This document shows positions 5,190 to 53,689 of a stretch of 64,000 bases of DNA, in pieces. The stretch is taken from the NCBI GenBank assembly GCA_009773355.1, contig WRPG01000007.1:1-64000 (forward strand), read 5' to 3'. The stretch's first letter is position 1; every line of letters starts with the position of its first letter. The notes below the pieces were generated by a model, which was given only the letters and a program-made list of their open reading frames with translations, had not been told where the DNA came from and did not search any database. Both the position numbers and the translations under genes were made by a program. This stretch comes from Limisphaerales bacterium. Lineage in GTDB: Bacteria > Verrucomicrobiota > Verrucomicrobiia > Limisphaerales > SXTU01.

Positions 5190-6071
5190 ATGACCGCCCG
5201 CGCCAAACTCCTTGCCCTCCTCGCGCTCGCGCTGGTGAGCATCGCGGTCTTCGCGCAGTTCCGCGGCGGCAGCCGCTTCCGGGGCGAAGGCAATTTCTCC
5301 GGCAGCAGTTACCCCAAGACCGCGCGCGAGGCCGAGCAGCACAGCAACGAGACGCCGATGTGGACCAACGCGCCGGCCTTCAAGAAGGACGTGTTCACCT
5401 TCTGCCGCATCCGCTACAGTAGTTGGTATGGCGGACGCAGTCGCGGCGGCTGGAGCACGGATTTCCCCGACGCGGACCTGAACCTGTCCTACCGCCTTCA
5501 GCAGATGACTTCGTTGAAGGTGGACCCGCTGGGGCGGCTCCTGGAAATCGAAGACCCGGACCTGTTCAACTACCCGTGGACCTACATGGTCGAGGTCGGC
5601 GCGCTGCGCTTCAAGGACGAGGAAGTTGCCATCATGCGCAAGTATCTCCTCAACGGTGGCTTCCTCATGGTGGACGACTTCTGGGGCGAGTTGGAGCTGG
5701 AAAACTTCCTCCGCGAGATGAAGCGTGTCTTCCCCGAGCGCGAGGCCATCGAACTGGAGATGGACCATCCCATCTTCCACAGCGTGTTCGACATCAAGCT
5801 CAAGAAGAACGAGCTGCAATGTCCGAACGTCGGCACCGGCACCTGGAGCCAGCAGACGGGCATCACTTGGGAGCGCGAGGATGCGCGGGACGTTCATTTC
5901 AAGGGCATCTTCGACGACAAGGGCCGCATGATGTGCTTCATCGCCCACAACACCGACAACGGCGACGGCTGGGAACGTGAGGGCGAGAACGAGTATTACT
6001 TCCGCGAGTTCTCCGAGAAGCGCGCCTATCCGCTCGGGATCAACGTGATTTTCTACGTGATGACCCACTGA
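5190..6071 (+). CDS. DUF4159 domain protein, copy 1
   Basis: A 293-residue protein with an N-terminal signal peptide (MTARAKLLALLALALV, cleavage near FAQ). The rest is one DUF4159 domain: DLNLSYRLQQMTSLKVDP, a GGFLMVDDFWG segment, an LEMDHPIFH segment and a closing NVIFYVMTH. The family is related to glutamine-amidotransferase-like folds but lacks a recognisable Cys-His-Glu triad here. In PVC and Bacteroidota genomes DUF4159 genes accompany MoxR/DUF58/vWA operons, as here. The molecular role is not established. It is followed after one base by a close paralogue. Confidence 0.85.
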   Translation: MTARAKLLALLALALVSIAVFAQFRGGSRFRGEGNFSGSSYPKTAREAEQHSNETPMWTNAPAFKKDVFTFCRIRYSSWYGGRSRGGWSTDFPDADLNLSYRLQQMTSLKVDPLGRLLEIEDPDLFNYPWTYMVEVGALRFKDEEVAIMRKYLLNGGFLMVDDFWGELELENFLREMKRVFPEREAIELEMDHPIFHSVFDIKLKKNELQCPNVGTGTWSQQTGITWEREDARDVHFKGIFDDKGRMMCFIAHNTDNGDGWEREGENEYYFREFSEKRAYPLGINVIFYVMTH

Positions 6072-6072
6072 C

Positions 6073-6954
6073 ATGAACCCGCGCGCCCTCCGCATCGCCG
6101 TCCTGCTTGGCTGCTTCGTTGTGGCTGTGGCGGGCTTCGCGCAGTTCCGCAGCGGGCGCGGTCGTGGCGAAGGCGGCTCCGGCGGGAGCACCACGCGCAC
6201 GGCGCGCGAGGCCGACCAGCACAGCAACGAGACGCCAATGTGGACGAACGCGGCCGCCTTCAAGAAGGACGTGTTCACCTTCTGCCGCATCCGCTACAGC
6301 AGTTGGGGCGGGCGCGGCTACGGCGGCGGACGCTGGGCCACCGATTTTCCGGATGCGGACCTGAACCTCTCCTACCGCCTCCAGCAGATGACCTCGCTCA
6401 AGGTGGACCCCGATGGCCGTGTGCTGGAGATTGGCGACCCGGAGCTGTTCAACTTCCCGTGGATTTACATGGTGGAGCCGGGCGCACTGCGCTTCACCGA
6501 CGAGGAGTTGCCCATCCTGCGAAAATACCTGCTCAACGGCGGCTTCATGATGGTGGACGACTTCTGGGGCGAGGACGAATGGGAGAATTTCTACCGCGAA
6601 ATCAAACGCGTCTTCCCCGAGCGCGAGCCGGTCGAACTGGAGATGGACCATCCCATCTTCCACGCCGTCTTCGACATCAAGCTCAAGAAGAACGAGCTGC
6701 AATGCCCCAGCATCGGCCATGTGGAGCGGGCGATGCGCGGCGGCGGCACCTGGGAACGCGAGGACGCGCGGGACGTTCACTTCAAGGCCATCTTTGACGA
6801 CAAGGGCCGCATGATGTGCTTCATCGCCCACAACACCGACAACGGCGACGGCTGGGAGCGCGAAGGGGAACACGAATACTACTTCAAGGAGTTCTCCGAG
6901 AAGCGCGCCTACCCGCTCGGCATCAACGTGATCTTTTACGCAATGACTCACTGA
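6073..6954 (+). CDS. DUF4159 domain protein, copy 2 (tandem duplicate)
   Basis: The same length (293 residues) and architecture as the preceding gene. Long identical stretches include the regions around FKKDVFTFCRIRYSS, ADLNLSYRLQQMTSLKVDP and HNTDNGDGWEREGE, so the pair is a tandem duplication. It has its own signal peptide (cleavage near FAQ). The copies differ mainly in the glycine-rich region after the signal peptide and in a short loop near residue 215, where copy 2 has HVERAMRGGG. Spacing to the neighbours is 1 and 12 bp, so it is operonic with moxR. Confidence 0.85.
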   Translation: MNPRALRIAVLLGCFVVAVAGFAQFRSGRGRGEGGSGGSTTRTAREADQHSNETPMWTNAAAFKKDVFTFCRIRYSSWGGRGYGGGRWATDFPDADLNLSYRLQQMTSLKVDPDGRVLEIGDPELFNFPWIYMVEPGALRFTDEELPILRKYLLNGGFMMVDDFWGEDEWENFYREIKRVFPEREPVELEMDHPIFHAVFDIKLKKNELQCPSIGHVERAMRGGGTWEREDARDVHFKAIFDDKGRMMCFIAHNTDNGDGWEREGEHEYYFKEFSEKRAYPLGINVIFYAMTH

Positions 6955-6966
6955 CAAGGGACAACA

Positions 6967-8039
<1,073 letters not shown>

Positions 8040-8043
<4 letters not shown>

Positions 8044-8981
8044 TTTCCCCCGCCGACCAGGTTGGCCACGCGAGCGGCAATTTGATTGACCCGCAGGCCC
8101 TCATGGCCATCCGCAGTCTGGAGATGCGGGCGCGCGTCGTGGTCGAGGGGTTTTGGAGCGGCATTCATCGCAGCCCGTATCATGGCTTCTCCGTCGAGTT
8201 CACCGAGTATCGCCAATACACGCCCGGCGACGACCCGCGCTATCTCGACTGGAAAATCTTCGCCCGCAGCGACCGCTACTTCATCAAGAAGTTCGAGGAC
8301 GAGACCAACCTCCGCTGTTATGTGCTCGCCGACAACAGCCGCTCGATGACCTTCGGCTCGCGCGGCATCACGAAGGCCGCCTACGCGAACACCCTCGCCG
8401 CCACGCTCGCCTTCTTCCTCCACCAGCAGGGCGACGCCATCGGCGTGCTGACCTTCGACGAGCAAATCCGCGAATACCTCCCCGCGCGCCATCGCCCCGG
8501 CCACCTGCGCCACCTCATGCTCGCGCTGGAGAAGCCGCCCGGCGGCGCGGCCACCGACCTCGCCGCCCCGCTCAAGCGCATCGTGGAAATCGTCCGCAAA
8601 CGCGGCCTCATGGTGCTGCTCACCGACCTACTCGCGCCCATCGAGACGCTGGAGAAAAACCTCGCCACCCTCACCGCCAGCGGCCACGAAGTCGTCGTGT
8701 TCCAAGTGCTCGACCCGGCGGAACTCAGCTTCGACTTCACCAAGGCCGCGCTCTTCCGCGACCTCGAATCCGGTCGTCAGCTCTACATTGACCCCGACGC
8801 CGTCCGCGCCGAATACAAGCGCGGCTTCGAAGCCCACTGCCAGGCCGTCGCCGCCACCTGCGCCAAGCTCGGCATCGTCCTCCGCCGCCTCACCACCGAC
8901 CAGCCGCTCGAACTCGCGCTCTTCGACTTCCTCCGCGAACGCATGAACCGCGGCAAGCTCGTGAAACGCAACACCGCATGA
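8040..8981 (+). CDS. DUF58 protein (operon 1)
   Basis: A 313-residue protein with the DUF58 hallmark early on (HGFSVEFTEYRQYTPGDDPR, then YLDWKIFARSDRYFIKKFE) followed by a vWA-like fold beginning at VLADNSRSMTFGS. The MIDAS-like motif is D-x-S-R-S. No membrane segment is seen. DUF58 proteins are the second member of MoxR operons and are presumed substrates of the ATPase. It overlaps both neighbours by 4 bp. Its closest paralogue in the window is at 50433-51338. Confidence 0.9.
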
Positions 8982-11083
8982 GCTTCCTCACGCCCCTCTT
9001 CCTCATCGGCGCGCTCGCGGTCGCGCTTCCCGTCATCTTCCACCTCATCCGGCAGACCTCGAAGGAGCAGACCGAGTTCAGCTCGCTGATGTTCCTGCTG
9101 CCCGTGCCGCCGCGCGTCACCAAGCGCAGCCGGCTGGAGCACATTCTCCTGCTCCTGCTCCGCAGCCTGGTCGTCTGCCTGCTGGCCTTCGCCTTCGCGC
9201 GGCCCTTTTTCCCGAAGGCGGACACCACCGACCGGCCCACCGGCCCCGGCAAGCGCATCGTCGTGCTCGTGGACACCAGCGCGAGCATGAGGCGCGATGG
9301 TCTTTGGTCTGACGCCCGCGCGAAGGCCGACGCCGTGCTCCGCGCCGCTGCGCCGGAGGACACGGTTGCCCTGTTCACCTTCGACCGCGAGGTGCGCCGG
9401 CTCGTGACCTTCGAACAATGGACTTCCGCCGCAGCCGGCCAGCGCGCCCCGCTCGCCTCGGATGCGCTCAAGAAAACTTCTCCCGGCTGGAGCGGCACGC
9501 AGTTGGGACAGGCGCTCGTCGCCGCCGCATCCTCCCTCGAAGACGCGCGCACGGACAACGCCCAGCAGCCCGCGCGCGGCCCGCGTCAGGTCGTGCTCAT
9601 CAGCGACCTTGCGGAAGGCAGCCGGCTCGATGCCTTGCAGGCTTACGAGTGGCCCAAGGGCACCGAGCTCATCGTCGAGCCGCTCAAGGCGAAAAAGCCC
9701 ACCAACGCCGGCCTCCAGCTCATTGCCGACAACGACGAGAACGAGAAGAAGCCCGGCGAAGCCCGCGCCCGCGTGCGCGTGAGCAACTCGTCCGACGCCA
9801 AGCGCGAGCAGTTTCAAGTCGGCTGGTCGGACGGCAAGGAGTTCGTCGGCAAGCCGCAGGACATTTACGTGCCGCCGGGCCAGAGCCGCGTCGTCCCGCT
9901 CACCGCGCCGCCCATGGGTGCTGTCGCCGAGCGGGTGATTTTGCGTGGCGACGAAGAAGCCTTCGACAACTCGCTTGCGCTCATCCCGCCGGAGGCCGCG
10001 CGCGTCAACGTGCTGTATCTCGGCGGCGAGTCCGCGGCCGACACGGCCGAGCCGCTCTACTTCCTCCAGCGCGCCTTTCCAGCCACACGCCGGCAAATCG
10101 TGCAGGTGCTCCCGCGCACGCCGTCCGCCCAAATCCTTCCCGCCGATGCCGAGGCACCGCTTGTCATCGTCACCGATGCCTTGCCTGACGAGCGCACCGC
10201 CACCGTCCGACGTCTGCTGACTGACGGAAAAACCGTTCTCCTCTCGCTCAAGAACCGGAACGTCGCGCGCACGCTGGCTGGCCTGCTCGGCAAGGAATCC
10301 ATCTCCGCCGACGAGGCGAAGGTGCCGTCCTACGCGATGCTCGCGGAGATTGATTTCCAGCACCCGCTCTTCGCGCCGTTCGCCGACCCGCGCTTCAGCG
10401 ACTTCACCAAGATTCACTTCTGGAAGTATCGCCGGCTCGACGCGGCGCAGCTCCCCGGCGCGCGGGTCGTCGCGAAGTTTGACACCGGCGACCCCGCGCT
10501 GCTGCAAGTGCCCGTCGGCAAGGGCACACTCTACGTCCTCGCGTCCGGCTGGCAGCCCGCCGACAGCCAGTTCGCGCTCTCATCGAAGTTCCTGCCGCTG
10601 CTCTTCTCGCTGCTGGAGCAGGCCGGCGGCATCCGCCCTCAAATCACCCAGCACACTGTCGGCGACACCGTCCCGCTCGCCGCCACGAACGCCGCCGTGC
10701 GCATCACCAAGCCCGACGGCACCAGCCTCACGCTCGGCGCGGGCACCGCCGCCGTCATCCAGACCGACCAGCCCGGCATCTACACCGCCGTCAGCGGCAC
10801 GGTCACGCAGCGCTTCGCCGTGAATCTCGACCCGCTGGAGAGCAAGACCGCTCCGCTTCCCGTCGAAGAACTGGAACACCTTGGCCTGCCTGTGACGCGT
10901 GCCGATGGCAAGACGCCCGTGCAAGCCGCCGAAGCTAAACGCCAACTCGCGAACGCCGAGTTGGAAGGCCGGCAGAAACTCTGGCGCTGGCTGATTGCCG
11001 GCGCGCTGCTGTTCGTGACGATGGAAACCCTGCTGGCCGGTTGGCTGGCGAAGCGGCCGGTGGCGAGGGAGCAAACGGCATGA
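8978..11083 (+). CDS. BatA-like membrane protein with vWA domain (operon 1)
   Basis: A 701-residue protein. It opens with the BatA N-terminal membrane segment (MSFLTPLFLIGALAVALPVI), has a second membrane helix around 57-77, and then a vWA domain with MIDAS motif DTSAS starting at D99. The middle (about 340-560) resembles the amidotransferase-like region seen in related vWA proteins (RVNVLYLGGE, then a search for loss-of-control values). A C-terminal membrane helix lies at about 672-692. The topology places the vWA domain outside the membrane. The protein is probably a partner of MoxR and DUF58. It ends at a 720-bp repeat-filled gap, unlike the tight spacing before it. Confidence 0.87.
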   Translation: MSFLTPLFLIGALAVALPVIFHLIRQTSKEQTEFSSLMFLLPVPPRVTKRSRLEHILLLLLRSLVVCLLAFAFARPFFPKADTTDRPTGPGKRIVVLVDTSASMRRDGLWSDARAKADAVLRAAAPEDTVALFTFDREVRRLVTFEQWTSAAAGQRAPLASDALKKTSPGWSGTQLGQALVAAASSLEDARTDNAQQPARGPRQVVLISDLAEGSRLDALQAYEWPKGTELIVEPLKAKKPTNAGLQLIADNDENEKKPGEARARVRVSNSSDAKREQFQVGWSDGKEFVGKPQDIYVPPGQSRVVPLTAPPMGAVAERVILRGDEEAFDNSLALIPPEAARVNVLYLGGESAADTAEPLYFLQRAFPATRRQIVQVLPRTPSAQILPADAEAPLVIVTDALPDERTATVRRLLTDGKTVLLSLKNRNVARTLAGLLGKESISADEAKVPSYAMLAEIDFQHPLFAPFADPRFSDFTKIHFWKYRRLDAAQLPGARVVAKFDTGDPALLQVPVGKGTLYVLASGWQPADSQFALSSKFLPLLFSLLEQAGGIRPQITQHTVGDTVPLAATNAAVRITKPDGTSLTLGAGTAAVIQTDQPGIYTAVSGTVTQRFAVNLDPLESKTAPLPVEELEHLGLPVTRADGKTPVQAAEAKRQLANAELEGRQKLWRWLIAGALLFVTMETLLAGWLAKRPVAREQTA

Positions 11084-11156
11084 GCACGCGGGAGGAAAAG
11101 AACGGTTGGCTGAACGCTTCGATGCACAGCGGAGCGGGATTTGGCAGTTCGCGCCG

Positions 11157-11294
11157 TCCCCCCTCACCCCGGCCCACTCCCGCTTGGAGAGGGGGAAAGT
11201 CAGCCAACGCTCGAAGTGCTATGGCGTTCCTGTCGGCTGAAAGCGGAATGCGTTTCTCCCTCTCCCGGCGGGAGAGGGCCGGGGTGAGGGGGAA
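11157..11294. repeat. Inverted pair of CCGGCCC-type palindromes
   Basis: Unit 1 at 11157-11199 (core CCCTCACCCCGGCCC, then GGAGAGGGGGAA) and unit 2 at 11256-11294 (core GAGAGGGCCGGGGTGAGGG) are roughly reverse complements. Each also has an internal CTCCC/GGGAG hairpin. When translated, the same repeat type gives the GGEGRGEG-like peptides seen inside the DUF1549/1553 gene at 58.9 and 59.7 kb. Confidence 0.75.
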
Positions 11295-11340
11295 GGCGAC
11301 ATTCGCGCTGAACGCGTGCCTTTCCTCGGCCACGACTCCC

Positions 11341-11492
11341 CTCTCATTAGCACCCGGCTTCAGCCCGGTGTCGCAACGGCAGCGCGGGCAGAGCCATTCC
11401 AACGATTTTGACCTCTGCATCCGCAAAGCCGTTGAAACGGCTTTCGCTCGCCATCGCCTCGACACCGGGCAGAAGCCCGGTGCTAATGAGAG
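11341..11492. repeat. Inverted repeat, 33-bp arms
   Basis: Left arm 11341-11373 (begins CTCTCATTAGCACCCGG) and right arm 11460-11492 (ends GGTGCTAATGAGAG) are reverse complements with only a few mismatches. The 86-bp interior holds a second hairpin, AGCCGTT-GAAACGGCT. Nothing in it looks coding. Confidence 0.8.
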
Positions 11493-11527
11493 GACTGAAA
11501 GCCGATGCGCTCCAGCGACGGAGTCGC

Positions 11528-11695
11528 GTCAGAGAGTAGCCCGCGGCGTGAGCCGTGGGATAGGCGCACCACAAGGGCGAGCCGCAGCGCGGCGGCAGAG
11601 TCTTGTTTGCGGTGAGGCACCCTTCTGTCGCCCCTGGGGACGTGCACCTCTTCGCCGATTGCCCCAAGGCTCACGCCTTGGGCTACTTTCTGTCA
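11528..11695. repeat. Inverted repeat built on CCCAAGGC...GCCTTGGG hairpins
   Basis: Left arm 11528-11560 (AGTAGCCCGCGGCGTGAGCC region) pairs with right arm 11663-11695 (GGCTCACGCCTTGGGCTACT region) with several mismatches. Each arm is itself a hairpin, so the element is a palindrome of palindromes. The interior of about 100 bp has no coding character. Confidence 0.75.
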
Positions 11696-11803
11696 CTGCT
11701 CCGCAGCTAGCCGACCGAAACTCACGCGTGTTCGTCATGCCGTCCTATTTCTCCCCCAATCCTAACGAAACATCCGCCCCTGCGCGGCGTCTGTCTTGAT
11801 GCG

Positions 11804-13717
11804 ATGATTGCGCCCCTCCTCAACGAGCATCTGGAGCCGGTCGCGCGTCGCTACCGCCGGCTGCAACTCTGGCGCGGGCTGGCCATCTGCTGGGCGCTCG
11901 CGGGGTTGCTTGCCATCGCGCTCGGAGCGTTCGGTCTGGATTGCCGCATCGCCGTTCCGCTGGTTGGCTTCCTCGGCTTCGCAGGTGCGCTCTGGCTGGG
12001 CTTCGCCTGCCTGGCCGCGAAGTCCGATGCGCACTGGCTTGCGCTTCAAATCGAGCAGCAGCATCCCGAGTTGAAGACCGTCCTGCTCGCGGCGCTGGAG
12101 CAGAAGCCCGATGCCAACGGCGAACTCAGCTTCCTCCAGCAACGGGTCATCGCCGAGGCCGTCGTGCATGGCCGGAACCTCGGTTGGACCGACGCCTTCC
12201 CCGCGCGCAAGCTCGCGCTCGCGCACGTCGCGCACCTCGGAGCCTTCGCGTTCTTTGTCGCGGCGCTGATGGGCTTGCGGACGAACAGCATCGCCGTCGC
12301 CCAGGAAGCCGCCGCCATCAAGGCCGCCTTGGACAGCGTCTCCGTCACGCCCGGCGACACGCAGGTCGAGCGCGGCAACAGCCTTGTGGTGCTGGCGAAG
12401 TTCGAGGGCCGGCTCCCGGCCGGCGCGACGCTTGTCCTCGGCTCGGGCACGAACGTCACGCGCTCCATCGCGCTCACCAAAGCGCTCGACGACCCGGTTT
12501 TCGGCGGCACCGTGCCGGAGGTGAACGAGGATTTTAGCTACCGCGTCGAGTTCGCCGGCCAGCGCACGAAGGAGTTTTCCGTGAAGGTCTTTGAGCATCC
12601 GAAGCTGGAGCGCGCGGATGCGAAGCTACAGTTCCCGGCCTACACGCAGTTGCCGGAGAAGACCATCGAGGACACGCGCCGCATCAGCGCGGTGGAAGGC
12701 TCGACGCTCCACTACATGCTCCAACTCAACAAGCCGGTGAAGTCCGCGCGCCTCGTGCCGCGCCGCAACGGGGAGATTGTCCCGCTCACGACCGATGACA
12801 CGAAGCCGTTCGCCACGCTCGCGAACTTCCCGCTCGTCGCCAGCGCGACTTACGCACTCGAACTCGTGGACGCCGACGGGCGCACGAACAAGGTGTCGGC
12901 GCAGTTCGTCCTCGATGCGCTGAAGAACAGCGTGCCGGAGCTGAAGCTGCTCTCGCCGCGCGGCGACCAACGAGTGTCGGCGTTGCAGGAGATCCACTTT
13001 GAGGCGGAGACGTGGGATGACTTCGGCCTGCGCGGGTATGGCATCGCGTATTCGCTCGGCGGCGCGGAGCCGACGCTGCTCCAACTCGGCGAGGGCGTGC
13101 CCGCGAAGGAGAAGCGCCAGTTCAGCCACCTGCTGCGGCTGGAGGAACTCGGCGCGGCCCCCGACCAGCTTGTCGCGTGGTTCGTGTGGGCGGACGATGT
13201 CGGCCCCGACGGCGAGCTGCGGCGGAACGCGAGCGACATGTATTTCGCCGAGGTCCGGCCCTTCGAGGAAATTTTCCGTCAGGGCGAAAGCGGCGGCGAA
13301 GAGGAAGGCGGCCAGCCGCCGCCCGGCCAGCAAAGCGGCGCGCAGCAGATGGGCAAGCTCGCCGAGTTGCAGAAGCAAATCATCAACGCGACGTGGAAGC
13401 TGCGGAGGCAGCAGGGCACGGCGCTGACGGTGGCGAAAGGCGGGGCGAGTTCCGTCCCACAGGCAGTTTTGCCTCCTCGTGTTCCCAATACGGCCTTCAA
13501 CACCAGTGCTGGCAAAGCACCAACCTCAGGTGGTCGATTGCCCCCGATGGCACCCGGAATGATGACGCCGGGGATGCTTCCGCCCAGCATTCTCACCAAC
13601 AACCGGGTGGCTGTTCCAAGTAATGGGACAATTATTCTAGTGCCCATAAAGCCTGCTGCGCGCCCTGCTGACGGACCACTTTTTGTGCCGACCAACAAGC
13701 CTGTGCAGTTCCAATAG
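11804..13717 (+). CDS. DUF4175-like membrane protein, N-terminal part of a split gene
   Basis: A 637-residue protein. Two hydrophobic helices occupy about 22-72 and a third about 140-160. An extracytoplasmic beta-rich region follows (SVTPGDTQVERG, then KLQFPAYTQLPEKTIEDTRR). It ends in the segment before the coiled coil (KLAELQKQIINATWKLRRQQ at about 520-545). From there the sequence changes abruptly to a low-complexity Pro/Asn/Thr-rich tail of about 90 residues. In longer relatives, as I know the family, the chain continues from this point into a Gln/Glu-rich coiled coil that here is the next gene. A shorter paralogue is at 56158-57852. Start ATG 11804 precedes a normal membrane N-terminus. 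Confidence 0.75.
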   Translation: MIAPLLNEHLEPVARRYRRLQLWRGLAICWALAGLLAIALGAFGLDCRIAVPLVGFLGFAGALWLGFACLAAKSDAHWLALQIEQQHPELKTVLLAALEQKPDANGELSFLQQRVIAEAVVHGRNLGWTDAFPARKLALAHVAHLGAFAFFVAALMGLRTNSIAVAQEAAAIKAALDSVSVTPGDTQVERGNSLVVLAKFEGRLPAGATLVLGSGTNVTRSIALTKALDDPVFGGTVPEVNEDFSYRVEFAGQRTKEFSVKVFEHPKLERADAKLQFPAYTQLPEKTIEDTRRISAVEGSTLHYMLQLNKPVKSARLVPRRNGEIVPLTTDDTKPFATLANFPLVASATYALELVDADGRTNKVSAQFVLDALKNSVPELKLLSPRGDQRVSALQEIHFEAETWDDFGLRGYGIAYSLGGAEPTLLQLGEGVPAKEKRQFSHLLRLEELGAAPDQLVAWFVWADDVGPDGELRRNASDMYFAEVRPFEEIFRQGESGGEEEGGQPPPGQQSGAQQMGKLAELQKQIINATWKLRRQQGTALTVAKGGASSVPQAVLPPRVPNTAFNTSAGKAPTSGGRLPPMAPGMMTPGMLPPSILTNNRVAVPSNGTIILVPIKPAARPADGPLFVPTNKPVQFQ

Positions 13718-13733
13718 CCGAACCGAACACGCC

Positions 13734-16289
13734 ATGAAAACTCCCAGCTCCAAACCAAGCACGCCAGCGCTGTCCGCCTTTGGTTGCCTCTGCCTCGTGA
13801 GCGCGCTGCTTTTGGCACCGCCCTTCATCCTCGCCCAGCAGCGCCCGGCCTCCGCCAAGGCCGCGCCCAAGCTCTCCGGCAACTTCGAGTCCGATGCCGG
13901 CGTGCTCATCGAGTCGCAGGAGAAGGCGTTGGAGATGGCGAAGGGGCTGGCGGAGAAGGCGGACAGCCCGCGCGCGCAGGCGGCGCTCACCGAGGTCGTA
14001 AAGCAGATGGAGCGCGCACTCAAGATGCTGGAGGAGGCCAAGGCCGAGCCGAAGAAGCTGGAGGCCGCCGTTGCCGCGCAGCAGGCGTCGTATCAGGCGT
14101 TGCTCAAGCTCGCCGAACGCGAAATCCGCGTGACTGAGAAGAAGGGCGGCAAAAGCGGCAAGGGCGGCGAGCAGGGCCGGCAGGGGCAGCTCGACCAGCT
14201 TGAGCTGAAGATGAACCAGAACCGTTACGAGCAGCAGAAGCAGGCCAAGGCCGAGCCGCAGCAGTCGCCGGAGCAGAAGGAGAATTTGCAGTTCATGAGC
14301 CGGCTCCGCGAGCTGGCGCAGCGGCAGAACGACTTGAACGAGCGTTTGAAGGAATTGCAGACCGCGCTGCAGGAGGCCAAGAACGAGCAGGAGAAGGAGG
14401 AGATTCGCCGCCGCCTGAAGCGCTTGCAGGAGGAGCAGAAGCAGATGCTCGCGGACCTCGACGAGTTGAAGCAGCGCACCGAGAAGCCGGAGAACCAGCA
14501 GCGCATGGCCGAGACGAAGGACAAGCTCGACCAGACGCGCGACGCCGCGCAGAAGGCCGCCGAGCAGATGGAGAAGGGCAACGTCTCGCAGGCGCTGGCC
14601 AGCGGCACACGTGCGCAGCGGGACCTGCAGGAAATGCGCGAGGACTTGCGGAAGAAGAACGCGAACCAGTTCGCCGAGGACATGAAGCAGCTCCGGCAGG
14701 AGGCGCGGGACATCGCGCAGAAGCAGGAGGAGCTGGGCAAGCAGTTGACCGCCACGCCGCAGCAGAACAAGAAGAAGTCGCTCACGGAGCCGAGCGCGAA
14801 GTCGGAGTTGCCGCAGGAGCTGGCCGAGCAGAACAAGCGCCTTGCCAGCCTCGTGGACCGCGCGACGCAAATCGCCGAGCAGTCCGAGAACGCGGAGCCG
14901 CTGCTGCACCGCCAGCTTTACGACACCATCCGCAAGCAGGCGCAGAACGAGGCGCAGAATCTCAAGGAGACCAAGAACGAGCTGACCCGGCGCGGCATGA
15001 TGACGCGCGGGCTTTACGAGATGCTGGAGAAGGCCTCCGAGCAGGGCACCACCAAATCGCTCGAAGTCGCGTCAGAGCTGGCGAAGAACGGAATGACCGC
15101 TCCGGCCTCTGGCGTCGAACAGCGCGCGCGGGCGGGCATTGAAGAACTGCGCAAGGGCGTCGAGCGCGCCGCCGAGAGCGTGCTGGGTGACGAGACCGAG
15201 GCGATGAAACAGGCGGCCAAGACGCTCGACAACCTGGTGCGCCAGCTTGAGCGCGAACTGGCACGCGGCGAAGCAAAGGACGGAGAAAAAGGCGGCGAGC
15301 CCCAAGCCGGCCAGCAGCCCGGCGACCAGAAAGGCAAGCAGGGTCAGCAGGCGCAGGCCGATGGCAAACAACCCGGTAAGCAGGCGGGCAAACAGGGAGA
15401 AGGCAAGGCCGGGCAGGATTCCAAGGACGGCAAGCAGGGCGAGGCTCAAGCCGGTGCTGAACCGGGCGAAGGCAAGCAACCCGGCGAGAAAGGTGGCAAG
15501 CAAGGTTCCAAGTCAGGACAGGAAGGCAAAGAGGGTGAAGGCAAGGAAGGCTCGAAGGCCGGTCAAGGCGGCAAGCAGGGGGAAGGCAAACAAGGCGAGG
15601 GCAAGGAAGGCGGGAAGTCCGGTCAGGGCGGACAACAGCCCGGCGGCAAAGATGGCAAGGACGGCAAAGGCGGAAAGCAAGGCGAGCAACCCGGCGAGGG
15701 CCAGGGCAAGGGCGGCGGCTCCGGTCAGCAACCCGGCGGCGAGCAGCAGGCTCGACCGGCCAGCGAATTCAATTCTTCACCGGGCAAGCAGGATGGCAAG
15801 CAGGCCAATGGCGGCCAGCGTGGCGGCAACAATCAGCGCGGCGGAGACCGTGGTGGCTGGGAGGGTATTCTCCCCGCCGGCATTGTCGCCGAGCGCGGCG
15901 GCGAGCAGGCCGGGCCAATCACCAGCGAGCGGGGCTTCGCCGATTTCAGCGACCGCCTGCGCGACGTCGAGGAAATGGTGGACTCGTCTGCGCTGCGGAA
16001 CCAGTTGCAGTCCGTGCGCGAGCGCGTGCGGGCCGAGCGTGTGGAGTTCAAGCGCCACAGCCTCGAACCGAAGTGGGACCTGGTGCGGATGCAGGTGATG
16101 AAGCCGCTGGTCGAGGTGCGGCAGCGCATCGAGGAGGAGCTGGCCAAGCGCGACAACCGCGAGGCGATGGTGCCGATTGACCGCGACCCGGTGCCCGGCC
16201 GCTTCTCCGAGCTGGTGCGGAAGTATTACGAGAACCTCGGCAAGAGCGAGGCGGAGGCGGGCGTTGCGCCGAAGGGGGCGCAGAAGTAA
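13734..16289 (+). CDS. Exported coiled-coil protein with Gly/Lys/Gln-rich region (C-terminal part of a split DUF4175-like gene?)
   Basis: A 851-residue protein. Start 13734 gives a signal peptide (about 15-35, ending ILAQQ); 17 further codons upstream are read-through of the previous gene. Residues about 50-480 are an almost continuous charged coiled coil (LRELAQRQNDLNERLKELQT and similar). Residues about 515-680 are a Gly/Lys/Gln/Glu-rich stretch of GKQGEG-like units without strict collagen spacing. A final 130-residue helical domain begins around WEGILPAGIVAERGG. No enzyme motif is seen. The coiled coil reads like the continuation of the previous gene, with a newly acquired signal peptide. 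It lies in the same operon, 10 bp before the antitoxin gene. Confidence 0.7.
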   Translation: MKTPSSKPSTPALSAFGCLCLVSALLLAPPFILAQQRPASAKAAPKLSGNFESDAGVLIESQEKALEMAKGLAEKADSPRAQAALTEVVKQMERALKMLEEAKAEPKKLEAAVAAQQASYQALLKLAEREIRVTEKKGGKSGKGGEQGRQGQLDQLELKMNQNRYEQQKQAKAEPQQSPEQKENLQFMSRLRELAQRQNDLNERLKELQTALQEAKNEQEKEEIRRRLKRLQEEQKQMLADLDELKQRTEKPENQQRMAETKDKLDQTRDAAQKAAEQMEKGNVSQALASGTRAQRDLQEMREDLRKKNANQFAEDMKQLRQEARDIAQKQEELGKQLTATPQQNKKKSLTEPSAKSELPQELAEQNKRLASLVDRATQIAEQSENAEPLLHRQLYDTIRKQAQNEAQNLKETKNELTRRGMMTRGLYEMLEKASEQGTTKSLEVASELAKNGMTAPASGVEQRARAGIEELRKGVERAAESVLGDETEAMKQAAKTLDNLVRQLERELARGEAKDGEKGGEPQAGQQPGDQKGKQGQQAQADGKQPGKQAGKQGEGKAGQDSKDGKQGEAQAGAEPGEGKQPGEKGGKQGSKSGQEGKEGEGKEGSKAGQGGKQGEGKQGEGKEGGKSGQGGQQPGGKDGKDGKGGKQGEQPGEGQGKGGGSGQQPGGEQQARPASEFNSSPGKQDGKQANGGQRGGNNQRGGDRGGWEGILPAGIVAERGGEQAGPITSERGFADFSDRLRDVEEMVDSSALRNQLQSVRERVRAERVEFKRHSLEPKWDLVRMQVMKPLVEVRQRIEEELAKRDNREAMVPIDRDPVPGRFSELVRKYYENLGKSEAEAGVAPKGAQK

Positions 16290-16298
16290 TTTCGAGCC

Positions 16299-16556
16299 AT
16301 GAGCACGATTGAGGAAATCAAGAGCGCCGTCAGCAAAGTGTCGCTTCGGGAACGCCGGGAGTTGCAACGGTGGCTGACCGACATCAATGAAAGCGAACCG
16401 TGGACCAAGGAGACGCTTAAGAAGGCAATCCAAGTCGGCATTGATGACTTGGAGCAAGGTCGGTTCAAGGAATACGACGAGGCTGGATTGGACAAAATAT
16501 TCGCTGGCATCAAACGGCGCGGCATGAAGCGGTTGGCAGCTCGCAAGGCCGCGTGA
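16299..16556 (+). CDS. ParD-like antitoxin
   Basis: An 85-residue protein with an N-terminal helical part and a C-terminal segment (KEYDEAGLDKIFAGIKRRGM) typical of ParD-type antitoxin tails. Its stop overlaps the GTG start of a ParE/RelE-type toxin, the normal antitoxin-first order. The pair sits inside the operon-1 gene string, 10 bp after the coiled-coil gene. It would neutralise the toxin and probably repress their shared promoter, but no operator is evident. The family is assigned from the tail and the neighbour, so the subtype is uncertain. Confidence 0.75.
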   Translation: MSTIEEIKSAVSKVSLRERRELQRWLTDINESEPWTKETLKKAIQVGIDDLEQGRFKEYDEAGLDKIFAGIKRRGMKRLAARKAA

Positions 16557-16849
16557 AGACCCCACGCTACCGCATCGCCGACAGTGCCGAGGCGGACATG
16601 GAGGACATCTGGGTTTACATCGCTCAACACAATGCCGACGCGGCTGATGCTCTCATCGGGAAATTTCGAGTGCGCTTTGCGTTGCTCGCGCGGACTCCCG
16701 GCATCGGTCGCCGACGCACCGACCTCCGTTCCGACCTGCGAAGCTTCGCGGTGGGCAACTACGTCATCTTTTGCCGCGAGCTGGAGCCAACCATTGAAAT
16801 TGTGCGGGTGCTCCACGGCGCGATGAACTTGCCCGCCCAATTCCGCTGA
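16553..16849 (+). CDS. ParE/RelE-type toxin
   Basis: A 98-residue protein starting with GTG at 16553, inside the antitoxin stop. The pattern YRIADSAEADMEDIWVYIAQ at the N-terminus and FAVGNYVIFCRE then IEIVRVLHGAM at the C-terminus is the ParE/RelE fold. ParE toxins inhibit gyrase and RelE toxins cut mRNA on the ribosome; the sequence alone does not decide which. Its stop codon shares a base with the ATG of the next gene (TGATG), so the toxin pair is translationally coupled on both sides within a longer operon, which is unusual. Confidence 0.85.
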   Translation: MKTPRYRIADSAEADMEDIWVYIAQHNADAADALIGKFRVRFALLARTPGIGRRRTDLRSDLRSFAVGNYVIFCRELEPTIEIVRVLHGAMNLPAQFR

Positions 16850-18063
16850 TGCATCTCGCCTCCCTCATCTTCTCCGGACGCGACTGGCTGGTGCCGGTGC
16901 TGGCGCTGGCGGGCATTGGCCTTGCGGCGCTCGTGTGGGGTTACACGCGGGCGGGGGCGGACAAAGGGCTGCGCGCTGTGTGCGTGATGCTGAAGGTGCT
17001 CGGTTTCGCCGCGCTTGCGCTCTGCCTGCTGGAGCCGCTCTGGACCGGCCAGCGCGCGAAGCCCGGCGCGAACCTGCTCGCGGTCGTCGCCGACAACAGC
17101 CAGGGGATGCAAATCCACGACCGGGGCAACGCGCAGAGCCGGGGCGAGTTCCTGCGCGATGCGCTCGCGGGCAAGGGCGCGGACTGGCTCACCAAGCTGC
17201 GCGAGAACTTCGAGGTGCGCGGCTACGTTTTCGACTCGCGGCTCCAGCCCAGCACGGACTTCGCGGAACTTAACTTTGAGGGGCGCGCCTCCGCCATCGG
17301 CAGCGCGCTGACCACCTTGAAGGAGCGGCTGGGCAACCGCCCCATCGCGGGCGTCGTCCTGCTCACCGACGGCAACGCCACCGACATCGCGGGCGAACTG
17401 CCGGACTTGAAGGGCCTGCCGCCCATTTATCCCGTCGTCATCGGTCGCGAGGACGCTGACCGCGACATCGCCCTTCAGAACGTCACGGTCACACAGACTT
17501 CCTTCGAGGACGCGCCGGTCACGATCCAGGCCGACGCAATCGCCAGCGGCTACGTGGACGCGGACGTGAAGGCCGAGCTGCTCGACCGCGCCGGCAAGGT
17601 CGTCGAGCAGCAGACGGTCCGCGTGAAGCGCGATGGCGAGACGCTGGCCTTTCGCTTTCAGCTCAAGCCGGAGAAGAAGGGCATTTCCTTCTATCGTGTC
17701 CGTGTCGGCGCGCAGGGCGAGGGCGGGCAGTTTGCGGACGCGAAGACTTCCGCCGAGGCGACGCTCGCGAACAACACGCGCGTCCTCGCCGTGGACCGGG
17801 GGCGCGGGCCGTTCCGCATCCTCTACGTCAGCGGGCCTCATCCGCATCGCCAAGCGCGAGCCGAAGTTCGACTTCCGCGGGCGCGCGGGCGAGACGAGCA
17901 ACCCGCTCTTCCGCGGCTTCGGCAACCAGTCGAAGGAGGAAATCGCGCGCTACGACCAGCCGGTGCTCATCCGCCTGAACACGAAGGACGCAGACGAGTT
18001 GAGCAAGGGCTTTCCCGCCACGCCGGAGGAGTTGTTCGCCTACCACGCCATCATCGTGGATGA
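16849..18063 (+). pseudogene. vWA/amidotransferase-like membrane protein, 5' part of frameshifted gene
   Basis: The frame codes the N-terminal part of a membrane vWA protein: helices at about 13-29 and 45-65, then a vWA fold starting AVVADNSQGMQIHD with D82. The MIDAS motif is degenerate (DNSQG for DxSxS). Homology runs to FRILYVSG at about residue 328. Beyond position 17833 the frame yields an Arg-rich tail with no family character. The true continuation is in the frame +1, where the protein resumes with GLIRIAKREPKFDF. The paralogue at 53690-56161 has about 20 residues (a P-x-W-D-F-R-Y-L segment) at this place. So a short deletion not divisible by three is the simplest explanation; an assembly error is the alternative. 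Confidence 0.7.
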
Positions 18064-19150
18064 CCTCGAGGCGGAGTTTTTCACGGCGGACCAGAAGTCG
18101 CTCCTGCAACGCTTCGTGAGCGAACGCGGCGGCGGCTTCCTCATGCTTGGTGGCATGGAATCCTTTCACGAGGGCGGCTACCTGCGCACGCCCATCGGCG
18201 ACATGCTGCCGGTCTATCTCGACCGTTCGCCGGACGAGACGCCGCGCGAGGAACTCCGGCTTGGTCTCACGCGCGAAGGCTGGTTGCAGTCGTGGGCACG
18301 CTTGCGCCCGACGGAGAACGAGGAAAAATCCCGCCTTGCCGCCATGCCGGGCTTCGGTTTGCTGAACGAGGTGCGCGGCCTCAAGCCTGGTGCGAGCAGC
18401 ATCGCCACCGTGACCGATGCCGGCGGTCACGCGCATCCGGCGGTGGCGGTGCAGCGCTTCGGCCACGGACGCACGGCGGTCGTGACCGTGGGCGACGTGT
18501 GGCGCTGGGGCTTGCGCGACCCGGAGATGCACCTGGACATGGACAAGGCCTGGCGGCAACTCGCGCGCTGGCTGGTCGCCGACGTGCCCAACAAGGTGGA
18601 ACTCGCCGCGCAGCCGAAGAAGGGTGACCCGAATCAGGCCGTTGAACTCCAGGTGCGCGTGCGCGACCCGAAGTTCCTCCCGCTCGACAACGCGACGGTG
18701 ATGCTGAGCGTGCAGCCCATCATCGGCGGCGTGAGCAACGCGCCCGCCATCCGCCTGCCCGCCGAGCCGTCCACCACGGAGCCGGGCCTCTACACTGCGA
18801 CCTTCGTGCCGCGTGACACTGGCGGCTACCACGTCGAGGCGATGGCGACCAACAATGTCGGGGCCGAAGCCGGCCGTGCCGTTGCTGGCTGGACGACCGA
18901 CTTGGCTGCCGAAGAATTCCGTTCGCTCAAACCGAACCGCGCTCTGCTCGAAACCATCGCAAAACAGACCGGCGGCGAGGTCGTGGACATGGGCGCGCTC
19001 GGAGCCTTCGCCGGCCGCTTGCCCAGCCTGAAAGCTCCGGTCACTGAGGCATGGACCTATCCGCTGTGGCATCAGCCGCTGGTGTTCGCCTTCGCGCTGC
19101 TGTGCTTCATCGCCGAGTGGGGCCTGCGGAGAATGAGAGGGTTGCCGTGA
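17834..19150 (+). pseudogene. vWA/amidotransferase-like membrane protein, 3' part of frameshifted gene
   Basis: Continuation of the preceding gene in the other frame. It begins at GLIRIAKREP and carries the amidotransferase-like domain (IIVDDLEAEFFTADQKSLLQ, then GGGFLMLGGMESFHEGGY), a beta-sandwich region and a C-terminal membrane helix near the end (PLVFAFALLCFIAEWGL). No good start codon lies at its head, so it is probably not made as a separate protein unless ribosomes reinitiate. Its stop overlaps the GTG of the caspase-like gene (GTGA), so the operon structure is otherwise preserved. Confidence 0.7.
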
Positions 19151-49286: not shown

Positions 49287-50321
49287 ATGACGACTACTGA
49301 AACGTCCGCGACGCTCGCGGGAGACAAGGATTTGCAGGCGCTCGAAAAGCTGAAGACCGCCAGCGCCGCCATCCGGCGCGAACTCGGCAAGGTCATCGTC
49401 GGCCAGGAGGATGTCGTCGAGGAGGCGCTCATCGCCATCTTCACGCGCAGCCACGCGCTGCTCGTCGGCGTGCCCGGCCTGGCGAAGACGCTGCTCGTCT
49501 CGACGCTTGCGCAGACGCTGCACCTCGGCTTCAAGCGCATCCAGTTCACGCCCGACCTGATGCCCAGCGACATCACCGGCACCGAGGTCATCCAGCAGGA
49601 CCAGACCAGCGGCGAGCGCGTGTTCCGCTTCCTCAAAGGCCCCATCTTCTCAAACATCATCCTCGCCGACGAAATCAACCGCACGCCGCCCAAAACGCAG
49701 GCCGCGATGCTCGAGGCGATGCAGGAGCGCAAAGTCACTGTCGCCGGTGTGGACCACGCGCTGCCGAACCCGTTCTTCGTGCTCGCCACGCAAAACCCGA
49801 TTGAGCAGGAAGGCACTTACCCGCTGCCCGAGGCGCAGCTCGACCGCTTCATGTTCATGATCAACGTGGACTACCCGACCACGGCGGAGGAACTCCAAAT
49901 CATGAAGATGGCCACCGGCGCGCCCATCGAGAAGCCGCAGGCCGTCCTCACTGAGGAAGACATCCTCGAACTCCAGGCCACCGTCCTCCGGATGCCCGTG
50001 GCCGAGCACGTCTATCAATACGCCGAGCGCATCGTCCGGGTGACGCGCATCAAGACCCCGGAGGCGAACGACTACTGCAAGAAGTTCCTCTCCTGGGGTG
50101 CCGGCCCGCGCGCGAGCCTGAACCTAATCCTCGCCGCGAAAGCCCGCGCGATGCTGCGCGGCCAGTTCCATGTGAGCTGCGACGACGTGGCCGCTGTCGC
50201 GCCGCCCATCCTGCGCCACCGCATCATCCCGAACTTCGCCGCCCAGAGCGAAGGCATCACCGCCGACGACGTGGTGAAGAAGATTTTGGAGGCGATTCCG
50301 AAGGACCAGAAGGTGGCGTGA
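49287..50321 (+). CDS. MoxR-family AAA+ ATPase (operon 2)
   Basis: A 344-residue protein. GAAAGG about 10 bp upstream is a good ribosome-binding site for ATG 49287. Walker A is GVPGLAKT at 61-68, Walker B includes ILADEINRTPPKTQAAMLEA, and the sensor is ATQNPIEQEGTYPLPEAQ. It is the first gene of operon 2. Its sequence is closely parallel to the operon-1 MoxR but without the Pro/Thr leader. A weak hairpin (ACGTGG/CCACGT, 49232-49248) lies in the 172-bp leader. The DUF58 gene follows after 111 bp that hold an inverted repeat. Confidence 0.93.
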   Translation: MTTTETSATLAGDKDLQALEKLKTASAAIRRELGKVIVGQEDVVEEALIAIFTRSHALLVGVPGLAKTLLVSTLAQTLHLGFKRIQFTPDLMPSDITGTEVIQQDQTSGERVFRFLKGPIFSNIILADEINRTPPKTQAAMLEAMQERKVTVAGVDHALPNPFFVLATQNPIEQEGTYPLPEAQLDRFMFMINVDYPTTAEELQIMKMATGAPIEKPQAVLTEEDILELQATVLRMPVAEHVYQYAERIVRVTRIKTPEANDYCKKFLSWGAGPRASLNLILAAKARAMLRGQFHVSCDDVAAVAPPILRHRIIPNFAAQSEGITADDVVKKILEAIPKDQKVA

Positions 50322-50428
50322 AATGTCGAAGCTCGAATGTCGAATGACGAATTGCCCCACGCGCGGCGCGCTTGAACCAGGCCGCGTGCGTTTCGTTCGC
50401 AATTCGCAATTCGCAATTAGCAATTCCC
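50320..50428. repeat. Inverted repeat of 7-nt units (AATTGCG) between moxR and DUF58
   Basis: The left arm (50320-50355) reads AATGTCG, AAGCTCG, AATGTCG, AATGACG, AATTGCC. The right arm (50395-50428), reverse complemented, reads AATTGCT then three copies of AATTGCG. The element fills 50322-50432 between the moxR stop and the DUF58 ATG. In operon 1 these same genes overlap by 4 bp. Confidence 0.88.
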
Positions 50429-50432
50429 TCTG

Positions 50433-51338
50433 ATGGACGCCGCCACGCTCGCCACACTCCTCGACCCCGTCGCGATTTCTCGCGCCGAGACGCTCGGGAT
50501 GCACGCGCGTTACCTCGTCGAGGGCTACATGGCGGGCGAGCACAAGTCGCCTTACCACGGCTTCGCCATCGAGTTCGCCCAGCATCGCGAATACGCCCCC
50601 GGTGACGACCTTCGTTACCTCGACTGGAAAGTCCTCGGCCGCACCGACCGCTATTACATCAAGCAGTTCGAGCAGGAGACCAACTACGTCGCGCACATCC
50701 TCCTCGACGGCTCGGAGTCCATGAAATACGGCTCCGGCGGCTACACCAAGCTCGCCTACGGCAAGATGCTCGCCGCCTGCCTCAGCTACCTCATCCTCCA
50801 CCAGCGCGATGCCGTGGCGCTGGACATCTTCGACACCGAGACCCGCGAATACCTCCCGCGCAGCAACAGCCACGCGATGATTCACAAGGTGCTCGCCACG
50901 CTCGCCGCGTTCGAGCCGGCGCGCCAGACGAACATCGCCGCCATCCTGCACGAGATGGCCCGACAAGTCCGCCGGCGCGGCATCGTCGTCATCATCAGCG
51001 ACCTCTTCGACGACGAGGAGAAGATCATGGAGGGCATCCAGCACCTGCGCTTCGGCGGCAGCGAGGTCGTTGTCTTCCACCTGATGGACCCGGCGGAGCT
51101 GGAGTTCAAGTTCAACGGCCTCGTCGAGTTCGTCGGCCTCGAAGCCATCCCGAACATCCTCACACGCCCGCAGGAAATCCGGGCCAGCTACCAGTCCGAG
51201 GTCGAGCGCTTCCGGTCAACGCTGCGCTCCGGCTGCGAGAAGAATCACGTTCATTTCGTCCCGGTGAACACAGCCCAACCCTTGCATGAGGTTTTGTCGG
51301 GCTATCTGGCCTTCCGGTTGAAGACCTCAATCAAATGA
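50433..51338 (+). CDS. DUF58 protein (operon 2)
   Basis: A 301-residue protein with the DUF58 signature (HGFAIEFAQHREYAPGDDLR, YLDWKVLGRTDRYYIKQFE) and a vWA-like fold from HILLDGSESMKYGS, with MIDAS D-x-S-E-S. The stop overlaps the next start by 4 bp. It is the probable partner of the MoxR ATPase upstream. It is more than half alike, by eye, to the DUF58 protein of operon 1. Confidence 0.9.
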   Translation: MDAATLATLLDPVAISRAETLGMHARYLVEGYMAGEHKSPYHGFAIEFAQHREYAPGDDLRYLDWKVLGRTDRYYIKQFEQETNYVAHILLDGSESMKYGSGGYTKLAYGKMLAACLSYLILHQRDAVALDIFDTETREYLPRSNSHAMIHKVLATLAAFEPARQTNIAAILHEMARQVRRRGIVVIISDLFDDEEKIMEGIQHLRFGGSEVVVFHLMDPAELEFKFNGLVEFVGLEAIPNILTRPQEIRASYQSEVERFRSTLRSGCEKNHVHFVPVNTAQPLHEVLSGYLAFRLKTSIK

Positions 51339-53578
51339 GCTTCCTCAACCCCTTCATGCTTTTCGGTGCCGGCGCCATCGCCGTGCCCATCATCATCCAC
51401 CTGCTCAACCGCCGCCGCTTCCAGCGCGTGGTCTGGGCGGCGATGCGCTTCGTTAAGGTCTCCACCGAGAAGAACCAGCGCCGGATGCTGGTCGAGGACA
51501 TGATTCTCCTCGCCATCCGCTGCCTGATGCTCGCGCTGCTCGCGCTCGCGGTCGCGCGGCCCGCGATGCGTTCCACCACGCACAATGTCTTCGGCCAGTC
51601 GAAGGTCACCGCCGTCATCGTCCTCGACAACTCCGCGAGCATGGGCGTCTCTGACGGCGTCCAGACACGCTTCGACAAGGCCCGCAAAATCGCCGAGCAG
51701 GCCGTGGATGCGCTGCCTTCCGGCTCCGCTGCCGCCGTGATTCTCGCGTCCGATGTGGCCAAGGAAGTCATCAAGGAGCCGACCCACGACCTCAACCTCG
51801 CCCGCAAAGCCGTCCGCGAAGCACCGCTCTCCGACCGGCCCACGGACCTTTTCCCCTCCATCGAGAAGGCGCTCGAAACGCTCAAGGGCCGCTCCGCCAT
51901 CCGCAAAGAGGTTTACCTCATCACCGACGGCCAGCTCGCCGGCTGGCGGCAGCTTGGCGACATTCAGAAGACGTTGAAGACTGCCAAGGAGCAGACCGGC
52001 GAGCAGCAGGTTTCCTCGCACATCGTCCTCATCAGCGACCACGAGGAGCGGAACCTTGGCGTCAGTGGCCTCGTCCTTAGCAGCGGCCTCGCGCCGCTGA
52101 ACCGCCCGTTGCGCTTCGAGGCGCAGGTCGCCAACTACGGCAAGCTGGAGGCCAAGGACATCAAGGTCGCCCTGCTCGTGGACGGCGCGGCGGCCGACGA
52201 AGTCACCATCCCCAGCATCCCACCTGGCGGCACCCGCAGTGTCCCGCTGAACACCCGTCTCAAGACCGAGGGCTGGCACAGCATCACCGCGCGCATTGGC
52301 GGCGACCGCTTCCCCGGTGACGACACCCGCACGCTGGCCGTCCGCGCCATCCGCGAGATTCGCGTCCTGGTCGTGGACGGCGAACCCGGCACCGAGCCGC
52401 GCGAGTCGGAAACCTTCTTCCTCGACCACGCGCTCGTGCCCGTATCACCCGAGGAAGCCGAGCAATACTACGTCAAGACCTCCACCATCGGCCCCGCGGA
52501 CATGGGTGGCACGCGCTTCGACGACTTCGACACCGTGGTGCTCGCAAACGTCCCCGATTTCTCCACCGACACCGCGACGGCACTGGAGAACTTCGTGAAG
52601 CGCGGCGGCGGCCTGTTTCTTTTCCCGGGCGCGAAAATCAACGCGGCGTTCTACAACCAGCAGCTCGGCACCACGCGCAAGCTGTTGCCCGCGACCTTCG
52701 GCGAGCCGCGCGGCGACGCGGCGCAGGAGGACAAGTTCCTGACCTTCCAAACCAAAGGCTACGACCACCCCATCGTCGCGCTCTGGAACGACGCCACCGC
52801 CGGCACGCTCGCCAGCGCCCGGTTCTTCCGCACGTTTGAACTCAATCTGCTTTCGGTTCCGACCGCCGATGCCGGTGAGAAAGCGGGCAAACGGGAAAGT
52901 GGGAAAGGCGGTTCACCCACCAACTCGCTGGCCAACCTCGCCGCGCCCAAGGCCATCCTCCGATTCAGCGACGGCTCCATCGCGATGGCCGAGCGCGCAC
53001 TGGGCCTCGGTCGCGTCGTGATGTTCGCGAGCACGGCGGACACAGCGTGGAATGACCTCCCTGTGCGTCCCGCGTTCGTTCCCCTGCTCCACCGCACGCT
53101 CGGCACGCTCATCCAGCGCCACGACGAAGGCGCGAACGTCCGCGTCGGCGCACAGTTCGCCCGCCGCCTCACCGCTGACTTGCTGCACAAGGAAGCCGTG
53201 GTGATGGCTCCCGGCGCGGCCTCCAACACCCGCGACTTGCGCCGCGTCGAGCTGGTCAACGACACGCCCGTGCTCACCTACGAAGCCACCGACAAGGCCG
53301 GCATCTACGAAATCTCCATCGCCGAGCCCGCGACCGTGCTGAAGTTCGCCGCTCAGCCCGACCCTTCGGAATCCAGCATGGCCGAGCTGCCCGCCGAGGA
53401 GGTCACCTCCCTCGGCCAGGTCGCCGCCGTGCAGCGCTGGAACCCAACCTTGAACCTGCGCGAGTGGGTGGAGAAAGCCCGCGTCGGCGCAGAGTTCTGG
53501 CTGCCGATACTCTTGGCCGTTCTCGCATTGGCCGCGCTGGAGACGTTCCTCGCGCAGTATTTCAGCCGGGCCAAGTAA
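51335..53578 (+). CDS. BatA-like membrane protein with vWA domain (operon 2)
   Basis: A 747-residue protein. It opens with the BatA membrane segment (MSFLNPFMLFGAGAIAVPII), has a second helix at about 53-75, a vWA domain with MIDAS DNSAS (D98), then beta-rich and amidotransferase-like regions (VLVVDGEPG, then NVPDFSTDTATALENFVKRGGGLFLFPG). A C-terminal membrane helix is at about 720-742. The same order and topology as the operon-1 protein. Stop is followed by an 111-bp gap that holds an inverted repeat. Confidence 0.88.
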   Translation: MSFLNPFMLFGAGAIAVPIIIHLLNRRRFQRVVWAAMRFVKVSTEKNQRRMLVEDMILLAIRCLMLALLALAVARPAMRSTTHNVFGQSKVTAVIVLDNSASMGVSDGVQTRFDKARKIAEQAVDALPSGSAAAVILASDVAKEVIKEPTHDLNLARKAVREAPLSDRPTDLFPSIEKALETLKGRSAIRKEVYLITDGQLAGWRQLGDIQKTLKTAKEQTGEQQVSSHIVLISDHEERNLGVSGLVLSSGLAPLNRPLRFEAQVANYGKLEAKDIKVALLVDGAAADEVTIPSIPPGGTRSVPLNTRLKTEGWHSITARIGGDRFPGDDTRTLAVRAIREIRVLVVDGEPGTEPRESETFFLDHALVPVSPEEAEQYYVKTSTIGPADMGGTRFDDFDTVVLANVPDFSTDTATALENFVKRGGGLFLFPGAKINAAFYNQQLGTTRKLLPATFGEPRGDAAQEDKFLTFQTKGYDHPIVALWNDATAGTLASARFFRTFELNLLSVPTADAGEKAGKRESGKGGSPTNSLANLAAPKAILRFSDGSIAMAERALGLGRVVMFASTADTAWNDLPVRPAFVPLLHRTLGTLIQRHDEGANVRVGAQFARRLTADLLHKEAVVMAPGAASNTRDLRRVELVNDTPVLTYEATDKAGIYEISIAEPATVLKFAAQPDPSESSMAELPAEEVTSLGQVAAVQRWNPTLNLREWVEKARVGAEFWLPILLAVLALAALETFLAQYFSRAK

Positions 53579-53581
53579 TTC

Positions 53582-53682
53582 TTAGCCACTGATGAAACAC
53601 GGATTAAACACGGATGCGCGAAGCGAGTTGGACAGCCGCCGTGTCTTTATCCGTGTTTGTTCCGTGTTCAATCCGTGGCTAA
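53582..53682. repeat. Inverted repeat with CCGTGTT units, 34-bp arms
   Basis: Left arm 53582-53615 (TTAGCCACTGATGAAACACG onward, with AAACACGGAT twice) and right arm 53649-53682 (ATCCGTGTTTGTTCCGTG onward, ending GGCTAA) match as reverse complements with a few differences. It begins 4 bp after one stop and ends 8 bp before the next start. Confidence 0.88.
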
Positions 53683-53689
53683 ACAAACC

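Follow-up and report, generated by a model that had tools for sequence, protein, structure and literature searches.

Discussions of gene fission mostly concern soluble multi-domain enzymes. A recurrent example is provided by the folB–folK–folP fusion genes of eukaryotes (PMC4224340). Among envelope systems, the closest described relatives of the locus considered here are the DUF4175 (PF13779) proteins, exemplified by AdvA of Acinetobacter baumannii (PMC7481262), and the Bat proteins, for which a membrane-associated complex has been proposed and a batB–batC fusion has been reported in Leptospira biflexa (PMC3557215). A literature search found no paper on the architecture described here.

The locus lies in a 64,000-nucleotide stretch of a Limisphaerales genome (contig WRPG01000007.1), the whole of which is referred to as the window, and consists of two genes that jointly match one protein, encoded by a single gene in most relatives. 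We consider it very probable that fission of a one-chain protein, with gain of a signal by the C-terminal half and its export, explains the arrangement as a whole.

The gene pair and its junction

The pair spans 11804-16289 and is made up as follows.

11804..13717, + strand: gene 1, the N-half gene, 637 aa (open reading frame, hydropathy, AlphaFold2 model, orthologues)
13377..13417, + strand: conserved end of the N half, ...IINATWKLRRQQ, the last helix before the break (alignment; helix 513-538 of the model)
13436..13642, + strand: low-GC in-frame insertion (junction alignment with seven congeners, GC, pLDDT)
13718..13733, + strand: intergenic gap from the gene 1 stop to the gene 2 start, 16 nt
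13734..16289, + strand: gene 2, the C-half gene, ATG start, 851 aa (open reading frame, domain mapping, model of a fused homologue)
13734..13835, + strand: signal-peptide-like segment of gene 2, ...FILA|QQR (hydropathy 2.57; kept in congeners)

The two genes are in different reading frames. Gene 1 has three transmembrane helices by hydropathy (residues ~25-43, 53-71 and 137-163), after which come three Ig-like beta domains, a flexible linker and one helix (513-538). Its conserved part stops at INATWKLRRQQ near 13415, with ~100 more residues to the stop codon; the motifs and coordinates that the initial annotation of the window had given are correct. The N terminus of gene 2 reads MKTPSSKPSTPALSAFGCLCLVSALLLAPPFILA|QQR and then NFESDAGVLIESQEKALEMA, so that the gene does open, as had been claimed, with a new signal-peptide-like segment, and this hydrophobic start is conserved in congeners. 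The ATG at 13734 suffices as start, the mechanical ORF start (TTG 13683) being unneeded. Beyond a helical array, gene 2 encodes a G/Q/K-rich disordered stretch (~15280-15830) and a conserved helical C-terminal domain that ends in YYENLG. Both halves are under purifying selection, with dN/dS of ~0.1-0.3 (G000 against three congeners). Between the two genes, a scan for promoters and terminators gave approximately the shuffled expectation and an Rfam search gave no match, its only matches lying upstream of gene 1.

The junction had also been described as carrying a ~90-residue unrelated tail on gene 1 and 300 bp of foreign-looking, low-GC sequence. The tail exists, but is ~100 residues long, and congeners share roughly the first eight of them; likewise the GC dip is real (0.58-0.60 around 13400-13800 against ~0.67 in the neighbours), but it belongs to the piece 13436-13642 (GC 0.575; GC3 0.54 against 0.88 in the core), the signal-peptide stretch of gene 2 having an ordinary GC of 0.67. 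Alignment with seven congeners, the check proposed for locating the insert, shows this piece of roughly 205 nt to be private to the analysed genome, where it encodes most of the gene 1 tail, which is predicted to be disordered. The congeners have the same split, the same signal and tails of 15-27 residues, with the insertion absent. By this alignment the piece is a later insertion, separate from the split and not its cause. No second copy of it was found in the genome, and a mobile or repeated origin was rejected on that ground.

Operon context and relationship to DUF4175

The gene pair belongs to an operon of the order TPR/peptidase-MA, DUF4159, MoxR, DUF58, BatA, gene pair, VWA/GATase-like gene and a further gene, which is the same in split and fused relatives. 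Its adjacent, same-strand core genes identify it as a MoxR–DUF58–BatA operon.

6967-8043, + strand: MoxR ATPase (Pfam)
8040-8981, + strand: DUF58 (Pfam)
8978-11083, + strand: BatA/VWA (Pfam)

Neither half has a match in Pfam (at E up to 1) or NCBIfam, and neither reaches the curated cut-off of PF13779; a genome-wide search with that family matches 56986-57525 instead. The N-half profile matches the PF13779-positive paralogue at 56206-57657 (E 3.4e-33); gene 1 is a remote homologue of DUF4175 and not a member of it. The earlier term 'DUF4175-like' holds in this sense, through the paralogue, but not as a PF13779 match of either half. The paralogue (~565 aa, gene end 57852) consists of the N module alone and closes a second, paralogous MoxR–DUF58–BatA–VWA operon (49287-57852), without a C-half gene directly after it.

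Several other features of the operon were noted. Two tandem DUF4159 genes, each with a signal-like start, lie upstream of MoxR (5190-6954). The 3' end of batA carries ~700 bp inserted relative to congeners (11060-11765), within which there are two Acido-Lenti-1 RNA elements in opposite orientation (11514-11559, - strand; 11663-11708, + strand); G002 and G005 have related stretches at other places in the operon. Two small ORFs separate gene 2 from the next operon gene (16297-16850); the first is antitoxin-sized and has no match, the second matches the ParE toxin family (E 2.8e-19), and the two are likely to form a parDE-type toxin–antitoxin pair. In the VWA/GATase-like gene (16849-19150), ~68 bp that are present in congeners and in family f30 are missing at 17834-17836 and the frame is shifted, which may be either real decay or an assembly error.

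Fused and split forms among relatives

Each half was used to search 58 relatives, and both domains were then mapped in 111 loci, most of the genomes compared being MAGs. Ninety of the 111 loci are in one frame across the boundary; two of these (G152 and G153) are broken further on, leaving 88 fused loci, 21 with two genes at the gene 1/gene 2 boundary and 2 with two genes ~60 residues downstream. Across most families of the order, a single open frame of roughly 950-1540 codons contains both halves. The two-gene state was found, in the search of 58 relatives, in the genus of the analysed genome and a few other families, and the split is common to 8 species of the genus and families f30 and f48. 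Fused genes also make up 70 of 80 named loci that were fetched separately, among them every locus titled Opitutae, Opitutus, Opitutia or Chthoniobacter. When 160 in-frame loci are considered (some genomes counted twice), 137 extend to the conserved C-terminal end, 19 are cut short by the contig edge, and the rest comprise 2 second-site splits and 2 frameshift-like loci (G088 and L206). Three contigs of this genus (L152, L154 and L155) bear titles such as Akkermansia muciniphila, Proteobacteria and Klebsiella pneumoniae, and have the appearance of mislabelled MAGs.

In other orders of the class, each of the four orthologues found is fused, with linkers of 4-13 aa, and since the outgroups are fused the two-gene state is the derived one. 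Full-length homologues across the junction, whose existence had been proposed as a check, thus occur in many families, and the claim that a single ancestral gene was divided in two, acquiring a stop, a start and an export signal, is upheld by them and by the outgroup polarity. The case qualifies as gene fission on two counts, the outgroups being fused with a two-gene derived clade, and both products being kept under selection (dN well below dS). It had been stipulated that the split would be ancestral if relatives shared both genes and the signal; congeners do share them, but the outgroups are fused, and the split is therefore old, ancestral to the genus, yet still derived.

Linkers in the 90 in-frame loci range from 3 to 180 aa and are mostly 7-12. 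The longest, of 43-180 aa against ~8 at the same junction, are found in fused loci of families f7, f9, f26 and f47 (L047, L050, L052, L054, L130 and L134-L142), and indicate that insertions, like fission, are tolerated at this site.

Number of independent fissions

At the first boundary the split loci fall into group A (this genus, f30 and f48), group B (f15) and group C (f34, f42, f43 and f50). On a concatenated tree of both domains, rooted on the fused Opitutae, the split groups sit inside fused clades and the split label changes 3 times, as forced by the starred branches and with 3-3 changes across bootstraps. Constraining all split rows to one clade costs 156 log-likelihood units and is rejected by the AU test (p-AU ~1e-70). 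In a MoxR+DUF58+BatA tree, A and C come out with full or near-full support, and B, represented by one row, stays apart; an RpoB tree recovers A and B with C scattered, giving 5 changes in all, so that operon transfer may have spread the group C split, or the single marker misleads. A fourth break, ~60 residues further on, is seen in G152, G153 and G448, and congeners G154, G155, G447 and G449 are fused; in genus g87 the species split at this second site are nested with fused ones. The different position of this break argues for its independence. By these trees and positions the gene was split independently at least four times, in three clades at the first boundary and in one at the second. Fission as such is familiar; what is new here is its fourfold convergence.

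Position of the breaks and the new export signals

The structure models are of single chains. In that of a fused homologue (L190, mean pLDDT 78), the order is three membrane helices, Ig-like domains, a flexible stretch, helix 510-531, loop 532-540 and a helix array, the C-half region containing helices over 541-971 and 1075-1177. The first break site maps to loop 532-540 and the second to loop 596-600, between helices 569-595 and 601-628, and hence in both cases the breaks are predicted to fall in loops between helices. The AlphaFold2 model of gene 1 gives the same picture, its tail having a pLDDT of ~33. Foldseek searches with both models returned generic Ig/FN3 matches only, with poor TM-scores. 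The three membrane helices and the basic N terminus would place the remainder of the N half in the periplasm, together with the C half where the two are fused.

Every two-gene locus has a new hydrophobic, signal-peptide-like segment before the C domain, judged from hydropathy and cleavage-like residues. The best 13-residue hydropathy before this domain is 1.95-3.13 in the 21 split loci against <=1.45 in the 90 in-frame loci, with no overlap; the choice of start codon favoured hydrophobic segments and so somewhat helped the split group, but the in-frame linkers have no comparable segment at all. Gene 2 of the analysed genome, at 2.57, lies well above the in-frame range. A strong hydrophobic core is found in 21/21 split gene 2 products, with a cleavage-like A|Q in most, and the gene 2 signal may be cleaved. 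In this genus position -3 is occupied by I or L, and uncleaved signal anchors are therefore possible. No source of the new signal peptide was matched above chance in the genome of G152, from the youngest split group. Stop and start overlap by 4 nt in most species of three of the origins (B, C and D, the last being the second-site split), as they do in two f48 species; in this genus the overlap is absent, the gap being +8 to +35 nt.

Had the gene been cut with no signal peptide gained, the C half would be left in the cytoplasm, and the fourfold gain of a signal fits selection for the same location. That each detached half gained its own export signal suggests that the halves still work together outside the inner membrane. 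The earlier picture of a membrane part plus a free periplasmic part is retained as far as a membrane part and a separately exported part are concerned, with the periplasm as the probable, though deduced, location of the C half.

Alternative explanations and a proposed mechanism

If two genes were the ancestral state, the fused forms would have arisen by repeated fusion through loss of the stop, the start and the signal peptide. Parsimony counts by themselves give no direction, and the ~565 aa paralogue in the window shows that the N module can occur alone, but such a history would demand many separate, precise fusions, the outgroup orders are uniformly fused with short linkers, and split groups lie inside fused clades, down to the g87 species split at the other site; we hold it to be improbable. 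An artefact of assembly or sequencing, or a decaying pseudogene, might be suspected in a MAG whose downstream operon gene has a frameshifting deletion near 17835. This is very improbable given that the same organisation recurs, in differing sequences, in 8 congeneric species and in several further families, each time with a second ORF and a hydrophobic start, and with purifying selection on both halves. The least credible proposal, to which we give almost no weight, is that the low-GC insertion recently split the gene in the analysed genome: it does lie at the junction, but the seven congeners that are split and have the signal peptide without it refute it as the cause and detach the 'foreign' stretch from the split.

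As for function, the C half could work apart from the N half, for example by diffusing to peptidoglycan or the outer membrane, this freedom having been repeatedly selected, and the four convergent events, the export signal and the lack of a membrane anchor once cleaved are compatible with it. On the other side, the genes stay adjacent in the two-gene loci seen, often with the 4-nt overlap, which favours joint function, and the N half retains one helix of the array; separate function seems to us doubtful. A further reading makes the boundary between the membrane-anchored part and the helical array a hotspot of fission and signal gain, with the free periplasmic C half having its own function and the fused form being an unstable tether, and is somewhat less likely still.

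Under fission with signal gain, which we prefer, the ancestor would have been a one-chain inner-membrane protein of the MoxR–DUF58–BatA operon, and its gene would have been cut in the ancestor of this genus and families f30 and f48, at a short loop that separates the helix ending INATWKLQR from the helix with which the periplasmic array opens. Still anchored by its three membrane helices, the N half would have its Ig-like domains in the periplasm, and the C half, having acquired its own signal peptide, would reach the periplasm as before, now as a separate chain. There the helical array, interrupted by the cut, may serve to dock it back onto the N half, and the adjacency or overlap of the genes would keep both chains in step; we lean slightly towards such docking as two chains. 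By analogy, the pair may form a membrane-anchored periplasmic scaffold.

Comparison with known systems

Within one bacterial lineage a membrane protein has been cut on at least four occasions, and each time the free half gained a new export signal. As a natural experiment, this points to a place for the C half outside the inner membrane, to a need for both halves and to tolerance of cuts in two neighbouring loops, and it offers a handle on an uncharacterised MoxR/Bat-type operon conserved across the class.

Like DUF4175 proteins such as AdvA, the product is a long envelope protein with N-terminal membrane helices, and the paralogue in the window passes the PF13779 cut-off; the gene pair differs in having no PF13779 match and in sitting in a MoxR–DUF58–BatA–DUF4159 operon. 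With the Bat (BatABCDE)/MoxR–VWA operons it shares the MoxR, DUF58 and BatA neighbours and the placing of exported and membrane partners side by side, but the reported case there is a fusion, whereas here one chain has apparently been cut repeatedly and the free half has gained a signal peptide. The folB–folK–folP genes are similar as a multi-domain gene cut in several lineages; the present case differs in being a bacterial envelope protein whose detached half also needed an export signal at each fission.
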